Of a stretch of 29,480 bases of DNA, positions 5,523-27,129 are shown in pieces (within the stretch, counting starts at the first letter, position 1; the number at the start of each line of letters is the position of its first letter). Position numbers and translations under genes: made by a program. The DNA comes from a virus. The stretch spans positions 1,098-30,577 of the IMG/VR virus record IMGVR_UViG_3300030102_003420; one strand, 5' to 3'. The notes beneath the pieces are model-generated. The model saw only the letters and a list, made by a program, of their open reading frames with translations, did no database searches and had not been told where the DNA came from.

Positions 5523-8500
5523 GTGACTTATAGAGCTGATATTCAAATCGGCGTCAAAGGCGCTAAACAGCTAGAGGATTTTAAGAAAAAGGTAGAAGAG
5601 CTGTCTAAAAAAATTGATAGAGTAAATAAACAAGAAATTCACGGTACAAAACAAGTAACAAGCATTAACGAATTTAATGCGGCACTTACAAAATCTATTG
5701 AAAACTTAAATAAAACACGTATGAGTTTAGATGCAGCGGGGAAAGCTACTGGAAACTACAAAAAGGCTATTGATCAATACGTTACAGCTCTAGGTAGATC
5801 AAACGAACGCCAAGCCCAGCAAAACAATCTTATACAAGAGGAAATCCGGCTGAGGCAGCAGGCTGCACGGGTAGCGAAGCTTCAAGCAGCAGGTATTAAG
5901 GAAGTTACTCAGTACGCGGGTCCTATTGGTCCTGGACCTGCGTCACCTACAGCACTTTCATCACCACTACCCCCAAGATCTAGGTTTTTTGGTGGTAAGC
6001 AATACTCCGGTCCTATTGGTCCTGGGCCTGTATCAGCTACAGCACTTTCATCACCACTACCCGCAAGATCTAGATTTTTCGGTGGTAAGCAATACTCCGG
6101 TCCTATTGGTCCTGGACCTGTATCACCCACGGCACTGTCATCACCGTTACCCGCTTTTATCGGCCCACGTCAAGCTACATCTTCGCAGCAGCAGGCTGCT
6201 ATTACGCAGGCAGCGAAGGAAATGAAGGATGTTTACGCATCCCTAGACAAAATACAAGAGAAACGACTTCGGCAACTTGCTGATGAGTCGCAGTTTTTGG
6301 GTGGTACTAGGACAAAGCTTCACGATATTAAAAAACTAACTGAAAAAATCGGCAAAGGCACACCTATAGCACCAAAGCGGATATTAGGTGAAACGCAGTT
6401 TGATAGGCCTATAGGGCCAGAAACAGCACAAAGAGCAGGATTGAAAAAAGGGCTCAGCCAGTTTGCGGACTTTGGTTTGGGCGCTGGCTTCCCGCTGTTG
6501 TTTGGCGGTGGTGCGGGTCAAGTTGCTGGCGGCGGCATCGGTACTGCACTCGGTAAATCACTGGGTCTTGCGTCCCAAGCTGTTTTCGGTTTGCAGATTG
6601 CCTTCTCTGCTGTTGGCGATCAAATCGAGCAAGCAATCCGTCGCATCGTCGAGATGCAGGGTGCGATTAAAAGCCTCGACATGGATCGCCTTGCGAAGAG
6701 CACGCTTTACGTCGATCAAAATCTTCGCGGTGCCGTAGACAGCCTTGTGAAGGCTGCTCAATACGCCGACGCCTACGCATTGGCTACCGCAGAGGCTGCA
6801 ATGCAGACTGGACTTATCGGCAGTCAACAAGAGAACATCGCTGGAACGGCTAACTACTTAGGTAATGCCTGGAACCGTCTAGTTACCTCCGGCTCCGCAT
6901 TTCTTTCGATTGTGGGCTCACCGCTTGCAGCCGCTTTAGGTGGCGTCGTTGATCTCATCGGTCTTTCAGTGAAGGGGATCAATATGCTGCTCTCCGGTTT
7001 TGGTGAGTTAATCACCCGAATTCCTGGTGTGAACCAGGGGTTAGACCTTATTAAGGAGGCTAATTATCAGATAACAGAAGAACAGGCAAAACAGCTCGCG
7101 CAGGCAGACCAACGAACAGGTTCACTTCTCAGGGAAGCAGCACTGGACCAACAGATTTTAGATCTTGAAAAACAGCGTGTGGGCGTTGTTGATTCTTCTA
7201 TCCCTGGAGCGCAGCTTCGCGCTGATTTAAAAGATGCAGAGATTGATCTAGGGATAAAGAACTTACAGATTGAGGACGACCTGATTAGTAAGAAAGAAGA
7301 TATAAACAAAAAGTATGCTGGTTTAATGAAATTAAGAGGTAATGATCTGAAGACGGCTAAAAGCTTGCGGGGTATAGAACTTAGTCTGGCTGAAGGTACA
7401 GCTAGACGTCGAAAAGAAGAAGCTCAAGTAAACAACGAACGAGCAGTAGGCAAGGCTGAGTTAGCCGAACAAAATAGGCTTAAGGACGAAGCAATTAAAC
7501 GGCAAAAGAAAATCCAAAAAATAAACGAGCAAATCAATGAAACTCACCAAGAACGAATCAAGTTAATGGAACAGGCGGCACGCAGTCAAATAGAAACATT
7601 GACAAACGCTTTGTCACTTGCAGAGGCACGTAACACCACCGAAAAACAACTTCTAAGCAATCAAATTAAGCAAGCTGAAATCCTAGGAAATACCAGTAAA
7701 GTTTATAGGCTGAAGAATGAGCTTGCCAAACTCGATTACAATATTTCAGTTCAAAGAATCAATACAGAAGTTCGTAAACTTCAAATCGCTAAACAAGTAG
7801 CCGAAGCCAAGCGATCCGAGCTGCAAGTCGCCTTGGCGCTTGTAGATGCAGAAAGTGAACAAGCAAAGAAATTAAGGCATGCCCTTGAATTGCAAGCTCA
7901 AGTCGTCAATCAAGCAAGAGTAAATCTAAGTGTCGGCAGGGAAATTGCGAAGGAGCAACTTAAAAATGCCCAAGCCATTAAAGAAGGCGCAATAGAAGCA
8001 AATAGACTTGCAAACCATATGGAACGAACGAATCAAAATATTGCAAATGCACGAAATAATGCGAGGGGACTAAAAGCTGAGCTTGCATCCGCATCAAGCA
8101 ATGCGGACGGAGTTAGTAGTTCAATGAGAAGTACTGGATCAAGCACCATAACAGTTAGTACTGGGCTGTATGGCATAACTAGAGAGCTTGAAAAACAAAA
8201 AGAAATAAGGGAAAGCGGTTTGTCCGCAGAGGCTTATGAGATGAGAGAGCTAATCAAAAAATATGATTACGACATTAGGTATAAAGCACTGAGAAACGAA
8301 CACGGACGAATAATGAACATTGGTATGATCAACATGCTTAGAAAAGGAAGGGCCCTTGCAGATGAGAGACTTAAGGAATTAATTCAAGAAAGTTTGACGC
8401 GAGAAAATGTTGAAGCCGCAATACGAAGTGAAAAGCAAGTATTTTCTGGAATGAATATAAGCCGTGCTGCACAAAGAGTTGGTATGCAAAGTTATTCAAC

Positions 8501-8849
8501 CTCTCAAAGCCAAGAGGGAGAAAGACAATTTGCCTTCAAATATGCTTCAGGCGGATACGTTTCCTCACCAACTAACGCTTTGGTTGGCGAAGGCGGCAGC
8601 GAATATCTCATTCCAAGTTCAAAAATGGCTGCTGCGATGGAACGTTATGCAGCCGGTAAGCGCGGCAACGAAGTCGTGCCGAACGGCAACGACACACAGG
8701 TGAACGTCAGCACCGGTCCTGTGATGCAAATGAACGGTCAAAATTATGTCACGCAATCTGATTTTGAGAAAGGCTTGCGGTCTACCGTGAATCAAGTGAT
8801 GACCACACTTCGTCGTTCACCTAACACTCGTGCTGCTGTAGGTATCTGA
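5523..8849 (+). CDS. Tape measure protein
   Basis: 1108 residues; sets tail length and is ejected during infection. Order of parts: N-terminal helices (VKGAKQLEDFKKKVEELSKK), a proline-glycine section with three near-identical 30-residue repeats at about residues 130-211 (core GPIGPGP), a hydrophobic glycine-rich stretch at about 312-505 that could cross the membrane, a long coiled coil at about 510-880, and a C-terminus with ASGGYVSSPTNALVGEGG and EYLIPSSKM, a frequent tape measure ending. The start is GTG with AGG just upstream. Base and codon use change sharply inside the gene: AT-rich with AGA, ATA and TTA codons in the first 900 bp and at about 7050-8540, but GC-richer at 6440-7000 and after 8570. 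The stop overlaps the next start (TGATG). Confidence 0.9.
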   Translation: MTYRADIQIGVKGAKQLEDFKKKVEELSKKIDRVNKQEIHGTKQVTSINEFNAALTKSIENLNKTRMSLDAAGKATGNYKKAIDQYVTALGRSNERQAQQNNLIQEEIRLRQQAARVAKLQAAGIKEVTQYAGPIGPGPASPTALSSPLPPRSRFFGGKQYSGPIGPGPVSATALSSPLPARSRFFGGKQYSGPIGPGPVSPTALSSPLPAFIGPRQATSSQQQAAITQAAKEMKDVYASLDKIQEKRLRQLADESQFLGGTRTKLHDIKKLTEKIGKGTPIAPKRILGETQFDRPIGPETAQRAGLKKGLSQFADFGLGAGFPLLFGGGAGQVAGGGIGTALGKSLGLASQAVFGLQIAFSAVGDQIEQAIRRIVEMQGAIKSLDMDRLAKSTLYVDQNLRGAVDSLVKAAQYADAYALATAEAAMQTGLIGSQQENIAGTANYLGNAWNRLVTSGSAFLSIVGSPLAAALGGVVDLIGLSVKGINMLLSGFGELITRIPGVNQGLDLIKEANYQITEEQAKQLAQADQRTGSLLREAALDQQILDLEKQRVGVVDSSIPGAQLRADLKDAEIDLGIKNLQIEDDLISKKEDINKKYAGLMKLRGNDLKTAKSLRGIELSLAEGTARRRKEEAQVNNERAVGKAELAEQNRLKDEAIKRQKKIQKINEQINETHQERIKLMEQAARSQIETLTNALSLAEARNTTEKQLLSNQIKQAEILGNTSKVYRLKNELAKLDYNISVQRINTEVRKLQIAKQVAEAKRSELQVALALVDAESEQAKKLRHALELQAQVVNQARVNLSVGREIAKEQLKNAQAIKEGAIEANRLANHMERTNQNIANARNNARGLKAELASASSNADGVSSSMRSTGSSTITVSTGLYGITRELEKQKEIRESGLSAEAYEMRELIKKYDYDIRYKALRNEHGRIMNIGMINMLRKGRALADERLKELIQESLTRENVEAAIRSEKQVFSGMNISRAAQRVGMQSYSTSQSQEGERQFAFKYASGGYVSSPTNALVGEGGSEYLIPSSKMAAAMERYAAGKRGNEVVPNGNDTQVNVSTGPVMQMNGQNYVTQSDFEKGLRSTVNQVMTTLRRSPNTRAAVGI
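5910..6155 (+). repeat. 90-bp tandem repeat in the tape measure gene
   Basis: Two full copies (5910-5999, 6000-6089) and a third partial copy (from 6090) of an exact 90-bp period, in frame, each encoding QY-GPIGPGP followed by TALSSPLP. Differences are mostly single synonymous or conservative changes, which points to recent duplication. Confidence 0.9.
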
Positions 8850-21134: not shown

Positions 21135-21398
21135 CTAAGACAACTCGTCAACAGGGACAATCTCGATTTGCTTACGGCTTTGTTTGTATGTGCCCCACCG
21201 TGGGATGCGGAGCGCATACTTAGCTGGATCAATACTGTGTTCCGGGTACTGGAGAGTGTTCCACTTCCACTCACAGTCGTCGCACATCCTGCTTCGAACA
21301 ATACGGCCATCTGTGGTGTAGTAGGTGTTTTTAACCCAACTGACTTTGTTGCCGCACCTTGGGCAGGCAGGCGAAGGGTAGTTAACTCGTGGGGGCAT
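21135..21398 (-). CDS. Zinc-ribbon protein, NrdR-like N-terminal type
   Basis: 87 residues. CPRCG at 12-16 and CDDC at 39-42 form a four-cysteine zinc ribbon, with the spacing and layout (TTDGRIVRSRMCDDC) of the N-terminal DNA-binding zinc ribbon of NrdR-type regulators. The ATP-cone half of NrdR is absent; instead there is a basic C-terminus. It probably binds DNA or RNA. The gene starts within the stop of the sigma factor gene (TGATG), so the two are translated together, which suggests joint control of transcription. The link to NrdR is structural resemblance only. Confidence 0.65.
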   Translation of the reverse strand: MPPRVNYPSPACPRCGNKVSWVKNTYYTTDGRIVRSRMCDDCEWKWNTLQYPEHSIDPAKYALRIPRWGTYKQSRKQIEIVPVDELS

Positions 21399-22249
21399 CA
21401 GATTCGATCAACAGTGCGGAAGTACACCCGCAACTTGCGGACAGAGCCATGGAAAATGTTGCGAGTGCGCTCCCGCGAAATTCCCAGCTCTTTAGAAATT
21501 GCCTGGAACGTCATCGGCGGTTGCGTACCAAGGCCAAGGGAGCACTCAACCACATACCTCTCCCTGGGCTCCAGCTTGCAGAGAATGCTCTCCACTTTTT
21601 CAAGATCAATACCCCACGAGACTTCGTCAAATACATCTACGTCAGAAGAAACGCTATCGATAAGCATCACGTCGTCATCTGTACTTTTGACACGGGCGTC
21701 AAGGCTTATGGCGTCGTTAGATCTATCCAAGTATTCTTGCAACCGCGACGGACTGATCTTGCAGTATTCAGCGCACTCTTCGATGGTGGGTTTGCGGTGG
21801 TGCGTATTCTCAAAAATCGGAGTCCAGTTGCGCAGCTTAGTCAAAAGCTCAACCGCGTGGGACGGCAACCGGATAACGCGATCATAGGTTGCCAAGTAAC
21901 GTGTAATACTTTGCCTAATCCACCAGTACACGTAAGTTGAAAGCGCATAACCACGCTCTGGATCAAACTTTTTAACGCCATGAGCGAGACCCATCGTGCC
22001 TTCCTGCACCAAATCAGAAAGCTCACTGCGCTTGCACTTATTTGTGTACCGCTTGGCAATGGAAACCACCAAGCGCAAATTACAGTTGACCAATTTCTGG
22101 TACGCTCGCTCCCCCCGCTTGATGATTCGCGGCGAGGGGTTTTCACCCTCGATCCAGTCTTTTACCTGACGCGCCAAGATGATTTCCTGGTCTTTGGTGA
22201 GCAGCGGATACCTACCGATGTCTCTTAAGTATGCGCTAAAAGTATCCAT
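21398..22249 (-). CDS. Phage-encoded sigma-70 factor
   Basis: 283 residues that would direct RNA polymerase to chosen promoters. Region 1.2 is DTFSAYLRDIGRYPLLT; region 2 runs from about residue 52 (NCNLRLVVSIAKRYT) through LVQEGTMGL and FDPERGYALSTYVYWWIRQS to about 135. WWIRQSITR (109-117) keeps the Gln and Thr that read the -10 box in primary sigma factors. Region 3 follows to about 190, and region 4 has a helix-turn-helix at 247-268 (FQAISKELGISRERTRNIF) that keeps RERxR. Region 1.1 is absent. The form is that of cyanobacterial group 1/2 factors. It is unlike extracytoplasmic-function factors, which lack region 3. The promoter targets are unknown. The gene sits between a 64-residue protein (1 bp gap) and the zinc-ribbon gene. 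Confidence 0.92.
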   Translation of the reverse strand: MDTFSAYLRDIGRYPLLTKDQEIILARQVKDWIEGENPSPRIIKRGERAYQKLVNCNLRLVVSIAKRYTNKCKRSELSDLVQEGTMGLAHGVKKFDPERGYALSTYVYWWIRQSITRYLATYDRVIRLPSHAVELLTKLRNWTPIFENTHHRKPTIEECAEYCKISPSRLQEYLDRSNDAISLDARVKSTDDDVMLIDSVSSDVDVFDEVSWGIDLEKVESILCKLEPRERYVVECSLGLGTQPPMTFQAISKELGISRERTRNIFHGSVRKLRVYFRTVDRI

Positions 22250-26330: not shown

Positions 26331-26585
26331 TCAGAACGTGAGGTACGTGGAGATCACAGGAAATGTATCCGATTCGTATGAACTCATGATGGAAGTATCA
26401 ATACCGCCGACAAGCGCTTTCTCCACATCAGCCTCAAGCCTGCAAAACTCTTCTGGATCGTCTCCGTAAAAATCTTCGCAGACAGCTTCCGGCAGTCCGT
26501 CAGGGTTGTATGCGGTATATCGAACCACCGCAAGGAAGCCTTCGACCTCAGAAACCTGATAGTAGGTGATGGTCGTAAGCTCCAT
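26331..26585 (-). CDS. Hypothetical small protein, divergent to the NblA-like gene
   Basis: 84 residues from the ATG at 26585: MELTTITYYQVSEVEGFLAV, VRYTAYNPDGLPEAVCEDFY, then GDDPEEFCRLEADVEKALVG. The frame extends to a TTG at 26636, but the ATG start gives a more regular protein. Its 5' end faces the NblA-like gene across 77 bp, so promoters for both directions may lie there; I see no convincing consensus boxes. The family is not recognised. Confidence 0.55.
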   Translation of the reverse strand: MELTTITYYQVSEVEGFLAVVRYTAYNPDGLPEAVCEDFYGDDPEEFCRLEADVEKALVGGIDTSIMSSYESDTFPVISTYLTF

Positions 26586-26662
26586 TGGACGCCTCGGCCT
26601 GTTACCAGTGTGGCCGTTATTTATGGAACGAGACAAAATGTAGTAGTTATTGAGGTGGGACG

Positions 26663-26845
26663 ATGGAGATGCACCGAAGCTTTGAGCTCCAACGATTCCG
26701 CCGCAAGATTGAAGGTTGCACAGATATAAGCGAGCTGCAGCAAATGTCTGTGAAATTGATGCAGCTTTACTTACACCAGCAAGACACCATCAATCAGATG
26801 GTCAAGAAAGGTTGGCTACCTAGCGAGGCACAGGAAGGGCGCTAG
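26663..26845 (+). CDS. NblA-like phycobilisome degradation protein (candidate)
   Basis: 60 residues, the usual NblA length. The core FELQRFRRKI, a short turn, a long helix with MSVKLMQLYLHQQ, and INQMVKKGWLP can be laid along the Synechococcus elongatus NblA sequence as I remember it (FDLQKYRQQV ... MAHENIFKGMIRQG) with a one-residue insertion. NblA is a helical dimer that links phycobilisome proteins to the Clp protease so that the antenna is broken down; phage copies may feed amino acids or alter light use. GAGGTGGGAC lies seven bases before the ATG. It is the only + strand gene of the right arm, flanked by - strand genes, like an inserted moron. Alternative: another small helical cyanophage family. 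Confidence 0.55.
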   Translation: MEMHRSFELQRFRRKIEGCTDISELQQMSVKLMQLYLHQQDTINQMVKKGWLPSEAQEGR

Positions 26846-26852
26846 CGCCCTT
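26835..26852. terminator. 18-bp perfect palindrome holding two stop codons
   Basis: AAGGGCGCTAGCGCCCTT is identical on both strands. The central CTAG supplies the TAG stop of the + strand NblA-like gene and the TAG stop of the - strand gene. As RNA it folds into a 7-bp stem with a CUAG loop in either direction. There is no long T run, so it may be a weak bidirectional terminator or an RNA 3'-end stabiliser. Confidence 0.55.
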
Positions 26853-27129
26853 GACGTTCTTCACGGCGCTCACGGTACAGACGCCCCACTTCATCGAAAC
26901 ATGCCTTGCGCGTTTCGTACGGAATGCTCTTGAAAAGCTGGTCTAGACGAAACATCAAAAATTCGTCCCGCTCATCGACGACATCCATGAACTTGTGGAA
27001 GTTCTGCAAGCCGTTGCCCATGGCGCTGACCAGGAATATCTGGAACGAAGGTGAGTCCAGCAAGTCTTTGAGTGAGAGCCTTGCTGCTGAATCCAGAACT
27101 TGGTCAGGAATTGTAATGTCGTAAGCCAT
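26842..27129 (-). CDS. Hypothetical helical protein
   Basis: 95 residues, mainly helical: VLDSAARLSLKDLLDSPSF, FLVSAMGNGLQNFHKFMDVV, then RDEFLMFRLDQLFKS and a basic end YRERREERQGR. No family is recognised. The stop lies in the palindrome shared with the NblA-like gene. The start has no visible Shine-Dalgarno; upstream is a T-rich stretch belonging to a possible terminator of the preceding gene. Confidence 0.6.
   Translation of the reverse strand: MAYDITIPDQVLDSAARLSLKDLLDSPSFQIFLVSAMGNGLQNFHKFMDVVDERDEFLMFRLDQLFKSIPYETRKACFDEVGRLYRERREERQGR

Follow-up and report, generated by a model that had tools for sequence, protein, structure and literature searches.

A candidate divergent NblA-like protein of a probable cyanosiphovirus retains the C-terminal motif of NblA

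Introduction

Does a small open reading frame found in viral DNA encode a relative of NblA, a protein by which the light-harvesting antenna is marked for breakdown, and what could such a protein do to the phycobilisome of an infected cell? This question is raised by a frame of 60 amino acids with an ATG start, located at 26663-26845 on the + strand of the window. By window, we mean the whole stretch of 29,480 nucleotides analysed here (positions 1,098 to 30,577 of IMG/VR record IMGVR_UViG_3300030102_003420), which represents most of a virus record of 30,577 bases. A sequence-only reading of this DNA had proposed that the frame is an NblA-like gene acquired from a host and that it would allow the phage to dismantle the antenna.

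NblA has been described as mimicking fragments of phycobiliproteins, serving as an adaptor for ClpC and assembling into four-helix bundles of dimers (PMC7966870). Among phages, nblA was predicted by HHpred in S-SCSM1 (PMC9602691), and the same source attributes to Nadel et al. the prediction of nblA in 14 cyanopodoviruses and in S-TIM5. It also mentions a loss of phycobilin in S. elongatus caused by nblA genes that come from marine viral metagenomes (PMC9602691). A description of the clade reported below was not found in a literature search whose reach did not extend to the key primary papers.

Results

The 60-residue protein has homologues at 18 distinct IMG/VR loci with identities of 72-97% (a first scan returned 13 loci and a second one the same 13 plus five more). 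In the window and at all of the 18 related loci, the frame lies between the same two neighbours, both encoded on the opposite strand. It is also under purifying selection, with a mean pN of 0.084 versus a mean pS of 0.480 (55 codons, 153 pairs, 18 sequences). This set includes the window and 17 relatives; L006, whose protein is identical to that of L005, was left out here as in all sets of the window clade, which comprise 18 sequences reduced to 14 non-redundant ones. Because the same neighbours are found at 18/18 loci and the frame evolves under purifying selection, 26663-26845 (+) is a real gene and more than a chance frame. The earlier reading was exact on its position, strand and length, and its remark that the gene is oriented against both neighbours holds for the whole lineage. 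The view that such a layout points to a host gene taken up by the phage is unsupported, since the gene is a stable syntenic member of a phage lineage and the palindrome at its end is complete in no relative. Recent acquisition as a moron was rejected given the synteny at 18/18 loci.

The left neighbour is divergent (26331-26585, -) and its start was placed at the ATG at 26585, which is kept in 18/18 aligned rows and was preferred over a TTG at 26636. The right neighbour is convergent and encodes 95 amino acids (26842-27129, -). Neither has a Pfam family at E values up to 0.01; the former has only weak PHROG matches and the latter a single weak one. A DUF3310 protein (PF11753; 25205-25516, -) is found among the small genes nearby.

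The ATG of the NblA-like gene is separated by 77 bases from the conserved ATG of its divergent neighbour. This intergenic space contains a putative promoter of its own (26634-26646, +), composed of a -10-like CAAAAT followed by GTAGTAG. Among 18 aligned rows, the -10-like site reads CATAAT in 14 and CAAAAT in four, and GTAGTAG is present in 17. With up to one mismatch allowed, the window contains the motif AATGTAGTAGT a single time, and a simple promoter scan recognised nothing, including no -35. The conserved promoter-like site CATAATGTAGTAG could be driven by the sigma factor of the phage (21398-22249). Four nucleotides before the ATG, an SD-like GAGGTGG (26652-26658, +) corresponds to the Shine-Dalgarno attributed to the gene by the earlier reading, and its AGGTGG part is kept in 11/18 rows. 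The palindrome reported at the gene end is also real in the window: 18 bases of perfect symmetry, AAGGGCGCTAGCGCCCTT (26835-26852), lie across the site where the stop codons of the two convergent genes overlap. No relative has the palindrome in full (0/18) and a 10-base core, GCGCTAGCGC, is present in three relatives (L003, L005 and L006). The palindrome has no T run and is therefore absent from the list of the terminator scan, and it folds no better than shuffled sequences (z -0.05). With no T run, this z value and no full form among relatives, a role as terminator is unsupported and was rejected.

The capsid protein of the phage is nearest to those of marine virus AG-345-A17 (47.9%) and cyanophage S-2L (41.7%), and then to those of Prochlorococcus and Synechococcus phages. 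Its sigma-70 family factor, which includes regions 1.2 to 4 (21398-22249, -), gives its best match with S-CBS3 (38.4%, 182 bits), the nearest one among annotated phages, followed by S-CBS1 (166 bits) and, close to it, an unannotated faecal phage record (165 bits). The phage also encodes an endolysin, an HNH nuclease, an AAA ATPase and a full-length, polymerase I-type DNA polymerase. The best reading of these similarities is that the phage is probably a cyanosiphovirus with a Synechococcus-like host. In 12 records (that of the window and 11 of the clade, all of which may be fragments), no match was obtained with the models PF00124 for psbA (E up to 0.001), PF00504 used for high-light-inducible proteins (E up to 0.01) and PF00589. 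An integrase-bearing marine nblA lineage was reportedly described by Flores-Uribe et al. in 2019. Identity with this lineage is unsupported, PF00589 being found in 0/12 records, though these may be fragments. Elsewhere in the window, a putative tape measure protein of 1108 amino acids (5523-8849, +), named from its size and place and with no PHROG match at E up to 0.001, contains at about codons 130-215 three similar proline/glycine-rich units (GPIGPGP..ALSSPLP.RSRFFGGKQY).

The sequence-only reading had put forward a search with the Pfam model of NblA (PF04485) as a check of its assignment and had counted a missing hit as evidence against it. Once run at E values up to 10, this search came out negative, returning none of the 14 non-redundant clade members, the window protein included. 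The model also matched nothing in seven IMG/VR records of the clade (0/7). The positive controls were recovered (Ma-LMM01, 1.9e-14; PaV-LD, 1.2e-12), and they were the only ones to pass the cut-off among sets of 10, 11 and 9 phage records; a sub-threshold match (E 0.08) was seen in S-B05, at another place. Of the other Pfam families, two have a match to a single clade member each (E 0.09 and 0.12). NCBIfam contains no family for the window protein, a search of PDB sequences with this protein gave no match, and a profile of the wider family returned from PDB sequences only weak unrelated matches and no NblA. A tblastn search of plasmids with a clade member had no match either. Finally, the profile of the window clade matches nothing in Ma-LMM01, P-SSP7, Syn5, S-RIP1, S-CBP42 and PaV-LD, nor in S-2L, AG-345-A17, MED4-117, KBS-S-2A, S-CBS3 and S-CBS1.

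Direct comparison of profiles gave another picture. The NblA set consisted of 19 non-redundant sequences (PDB 1ojh, 2q8v and 3cs5, Ma-LMM01, Nostoc and Chroococcidiopsis plasmids, and viral contigs). Aligned against it with hhalign, the window clade scores 27.1 (Prob 75.8) over 48 columns with one inserted residue, at a pair E of 2.3e-5; taking into account the 24,736 models of Pfam by multiplication would bring this value to about 0.6. The same register, with its single insertion, had been proposed from the sequence alone, and the residue match given there (FELQRFRRKI with FDLQKYRQQV and, as far as printed, INQMVKKG with IFKGMIRQ) fits the S. elongatus sequence (3cs5). As decoys, 150 column-permuted NblA profiles reach a mean of 10.2 (SD 2.2, maximum 18.0) and the reversed profile 10.7. 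We also scored every one of the 70 small-ORF clusters obtained from the retrieved loci, although some are surely spurious frames: one cluster, in which the window clade is mixed with marine relatives, scores 10.3, and the best of the 69 unrelated ones reaches 17.4. In a search of 4,400 unique ORFs with an HMM of the 19 NblAs, the 18 unique ORFs of the window clade are found at 15.1-17.1 bits (15.7 bits and E 0.003 for the window protein). The only ORFs ranked before them are 43 true NblAs, in many cases members from which the HMM was built, and they stand above the 'NblA' of S-SCSM2R (11.2 bits) and the best unrelated ORF (10.4 bits).

The hhalign signal depends on what is compared. Without residues 48 onwards, the score drops to 16.3, inside the decoy range, indicating that the signal leans on the C-terminus. 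Against only three NblAs of the Ma-LMM01 type or only three PDB sequences, the clade scores 13.7 in both cases, and its score with NblA is lowered by the addition to the clade of a podovirus pair (23.2) or of the whole marine set described below (14.3, or 10.3 in another build). Altogether, the profile tests support a relation of the clade to true NblA beyond chance. The opposite view, that two amphipathic helical hairpins resemble each other with no common descent, may draw on the shortness and helical nature of these proteins and on the negative Pfam and PDB sequence searches. We nevertheless hold it to be highly improbable, as the score of the clade is reached by 0/150 permuted profiles and 0/69 unrelated ORF families, and as the match is collinear over nearly the full length, with agreement of the loop register and of the C-terminal K..W.

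Among PHROGs, the window protein matches one family, phrog_27081 (E 1.5e-5, residues 4-46), which is also matched by three out of three further clade members (3.6e-6 to 1.3e-4) and by 7/7 IMG/VR clade records (8.6e-7 to 6.2e-6). This family also takes in proteins of S-TIM5 (4.6e-32), S-SCSM1 (4.1e-25), S-SKS1 (5e-23) and S-SCSM2R (1.3e-15), two of which were deposited with a name related to NblA: phycobilisome degradation protein (nblA) for S-SCSM1 (QFG06501) and NblA for S-SCSM2R (XQU50031). Its model gives weak matches in 7/14 control genomes at E up to 1, and none in nine records of the sort listed above for the clade profile (0/9 at E up to 1). Conversely, the clade profile finds S-SCSM1 at 2.5e-4, together with proteins of two uncultured marine autographivirid phages, MedDCM-OCT-S31-C1 (5.4e-7) and MedDCM-OCT-S38-C3 (1.1e-3). 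These last two, deposited as hypothetical, have no phrog_27081 match at E up to 1 and do not have the K..W end; that of S31-C1 is only 26% identical to the window protein.

For the marine set, we took 80 loci minus L086 and L087, in which the match starts at residue 3, and added two loci from archaeal MAGs and 11 named phages, the resulting 91 being reduced to 65. The two archaeal-MAG loci (L048 and L049) come from a scan of genome contigs with the marine motif, the only one on the host side, which found two phage-like contigs in MAGs of Euryarchaeota; they encode proteins of the marine NblA-like kind with 48-56% identity to S-TIM5 and are therefore probably misbinned cyanophage contigs. A tblastn search with the S-SKS1 member retrieved 25 phage records. 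In the deposited isolate genome of Synechococcus phage Sf-CH8, we noted an unannotated NblA-like ORF of the marine kind (PV340853.1 from 125055; L045 601-765). In S-SKS1, the NblA-like stretch forms the C-terminal half of a protein of 137 amino acids (AGH31732; L016 1722-2135), the N-terminal part of which matches phrog_3426 at 2.8e-10.

Like the proteins of S-SCSM1, S-TIM5, S-SKS1 and S-SCSM2R, the members of the clade have the F, the I-[ED] before the loop and LYxxQQ[ED]. Unlike them, they do not carry the N-terminal extension MDPxxIxL[ED] present in most marine proteins, which end soon after QQE and have no K..W. All 14 clade members start with M[ED]MHR and contain QLYL[HRQ]QQD, instead of the marine extension with its KLYxKQQE core. 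None of the 65 marine sequences has a W among its last 15 residues, and the I.L[ED] before helix 1 is mostly kept in this set. With hhalign, the clade, whose strongest named relative is phrog_27081, scores 55.7 with the marine family (E 5e-12), and the marine set scores 12.7 with NblA, inside the decoy range. Judged by these profiles, the marine cyanomyovirus set, part of which was deposited as 'NblA', is further from true NblA than the clade. Taken together, four of the marine sequences with a loop one residue shorter, as in NblA (L038, L042, L043 and L122), reach 21.5 with NblA and bridge the two groups.

The window protein might be a small helical protein of the phrog_27081 kind, for which the NblA label reflects only remote homology and the target is something other than the antenna (RNA polymerase or another Clp substrate, for instance). 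The strength of the marine match, the failure of the marine set to exceed decoys with NblA, its consistent lack of the W and the commonness of helical hairpins, which Foldseek could not separate here, would all suit this explanation. We consider it unlikely, though to be taken seriously, since the window clade, unlike the marine set, is well above decoys with NblA and shares its K..W, and since the four shorter-loop members connect the groups.

Structure prediction with AF2 gave for the window protein two main helices (residues 3-18 and 22-48) followed by a short third helix (54-58; pLDDT 82.3), and for a true NblA used as control helices at 17-32 and 35-63 (pLDDT 78.4). Helix lengths are thus 16 and 27 residues versus 16 and 29, in the same register as the sequence alignment. 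Foldseek/VIA-align returned only unrelated chains with the window model, and at E up to 10 no chain at all was retrieved with the model of the NblA control, so that this comparison lacks power. Among viral proteins, the best structural match is the MedDCM-OCT-S31-C1 protein (rmsd 1.1 over 45 columns, prob 0.96, E 0.25). When compared with NblA from cyanobacteria and from freshwater cyanophages (PF04485; PDB 1ojh, 2q8v, 2qdo and 3cs5; Ma-LMM01 and PaV-LD), the clade has a similar size of about 60 amino acids, a predicted helix of 16 residues, a short turn and a helix of 27-29 residues with the same hydrophobic pattern, and a C-terminal [LMFI][LVI]K..W. It differs from NblA by escaping PF04485, by one extra loop residue, by a basic helix 1 and by H-R in place of E10-Q11 (Anabaena numbering).

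The two ends of the protein behave differently. On the C-terminal side, the phycobiliprotein-side motif presumably consists of K53 and W56 in Anabaena numbering, L51 and K53 being important residues; Bienert et al. in 2006 are said to have addressed the roles of L51 and K53 individually. The K is present in 14/14 clade members versus 17/19 NblAs and the W in 14/14 versus 16/19. On the N-terminal side, the L.LEQ motif of NblA is replaced: the E-Q pair is found in all 19 NblAs and H-R at the aligned columns in all 14 clade members. The identification as NblA proposed from the sequence therefore stands as a relation, based on profile tests, helix lengths and register, and K..W, and fails as a family assignment, with PF04485 negative and L.LEQ replaced. 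As these tests showed a score below the cut-off of Pfam and no E-Q motif, the protein is not filed as a member of the NblA family.

In NblA, two motifs make the contacts, a conserved one close to the N-terminus for ClpC and another close to the C-terminus for phycobiliproteins (PMC4103541, in a passage that leaves the residues unnamed). With the protease-side motif lost, even the opposite effect, a protection of the antenna, is allowed: an antagonist would occupy the site of NblA and shield the antenna from host NblA/Clp during infection. The replacement of E-Q by H-R in 14/14 members that all keep K..W fits such a role, which we judge quite improbable given that ClpC binding could use other residues and that the phage NblAs with tests cited in PMC9602691 promote phycobilin loss. 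A related proposal seems improbable as well, namely an NblA with split motifs that keeps antenna binding and has lost the recruitment of the protease, thereby blocking host NblA or dismantling the phycobilisome without Clp, the phrog_27081 phages examined here showing the mirror-image loss at the opposite end.

Discussion

Our results make it reasonably probable that the gene at 26663-26845 encodes a divergent NblA-like, phycobilisome-binding protein that promotes disassembly or degradation of the antenna and is distinct from a standard NblA. That the protein works on the phycobilisome in one way or another, the antagonist being included, is likely. The protein would be made by a cyanosiphovirus from a small transcription unit of its own in the replication/regulation region. 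It would most likely bind phycobilisome subunits via the end of its C-terminal helix (M/L-V/I-K-K-G-W). Acting as an NblA-like adaptor, or loosening rods by mimicry, it may lead to disassembly or proteolysis of the antenna during infection, the protease being possibly recruited through some different contact in place of the usual E-Q motif at the N-terminus. Breakdown of the antenna could free amino acids and cut excitation pressure, with a possible effect on infection. Phage-driven bleaching, or antenna dismantling, is thus a plausible outcome at the level of the cell.

NblA-like genes are one of the few handles by which phages can act on the picocyanobacterial antenna. Those of the marine kind examined here escape the Pfam model of NblA and were named by remote homology, and the window clade may serve as a bridge for finding further unannotated members. 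The clade keeps the antenna-binding end and does not have the part to which protease recruitment is ascribed, which makes its effect on the antenna of particular interest. With one end kept and the other altered, it would be a natural case in which to ask whether recruitment of Clp is required for phage NblA.
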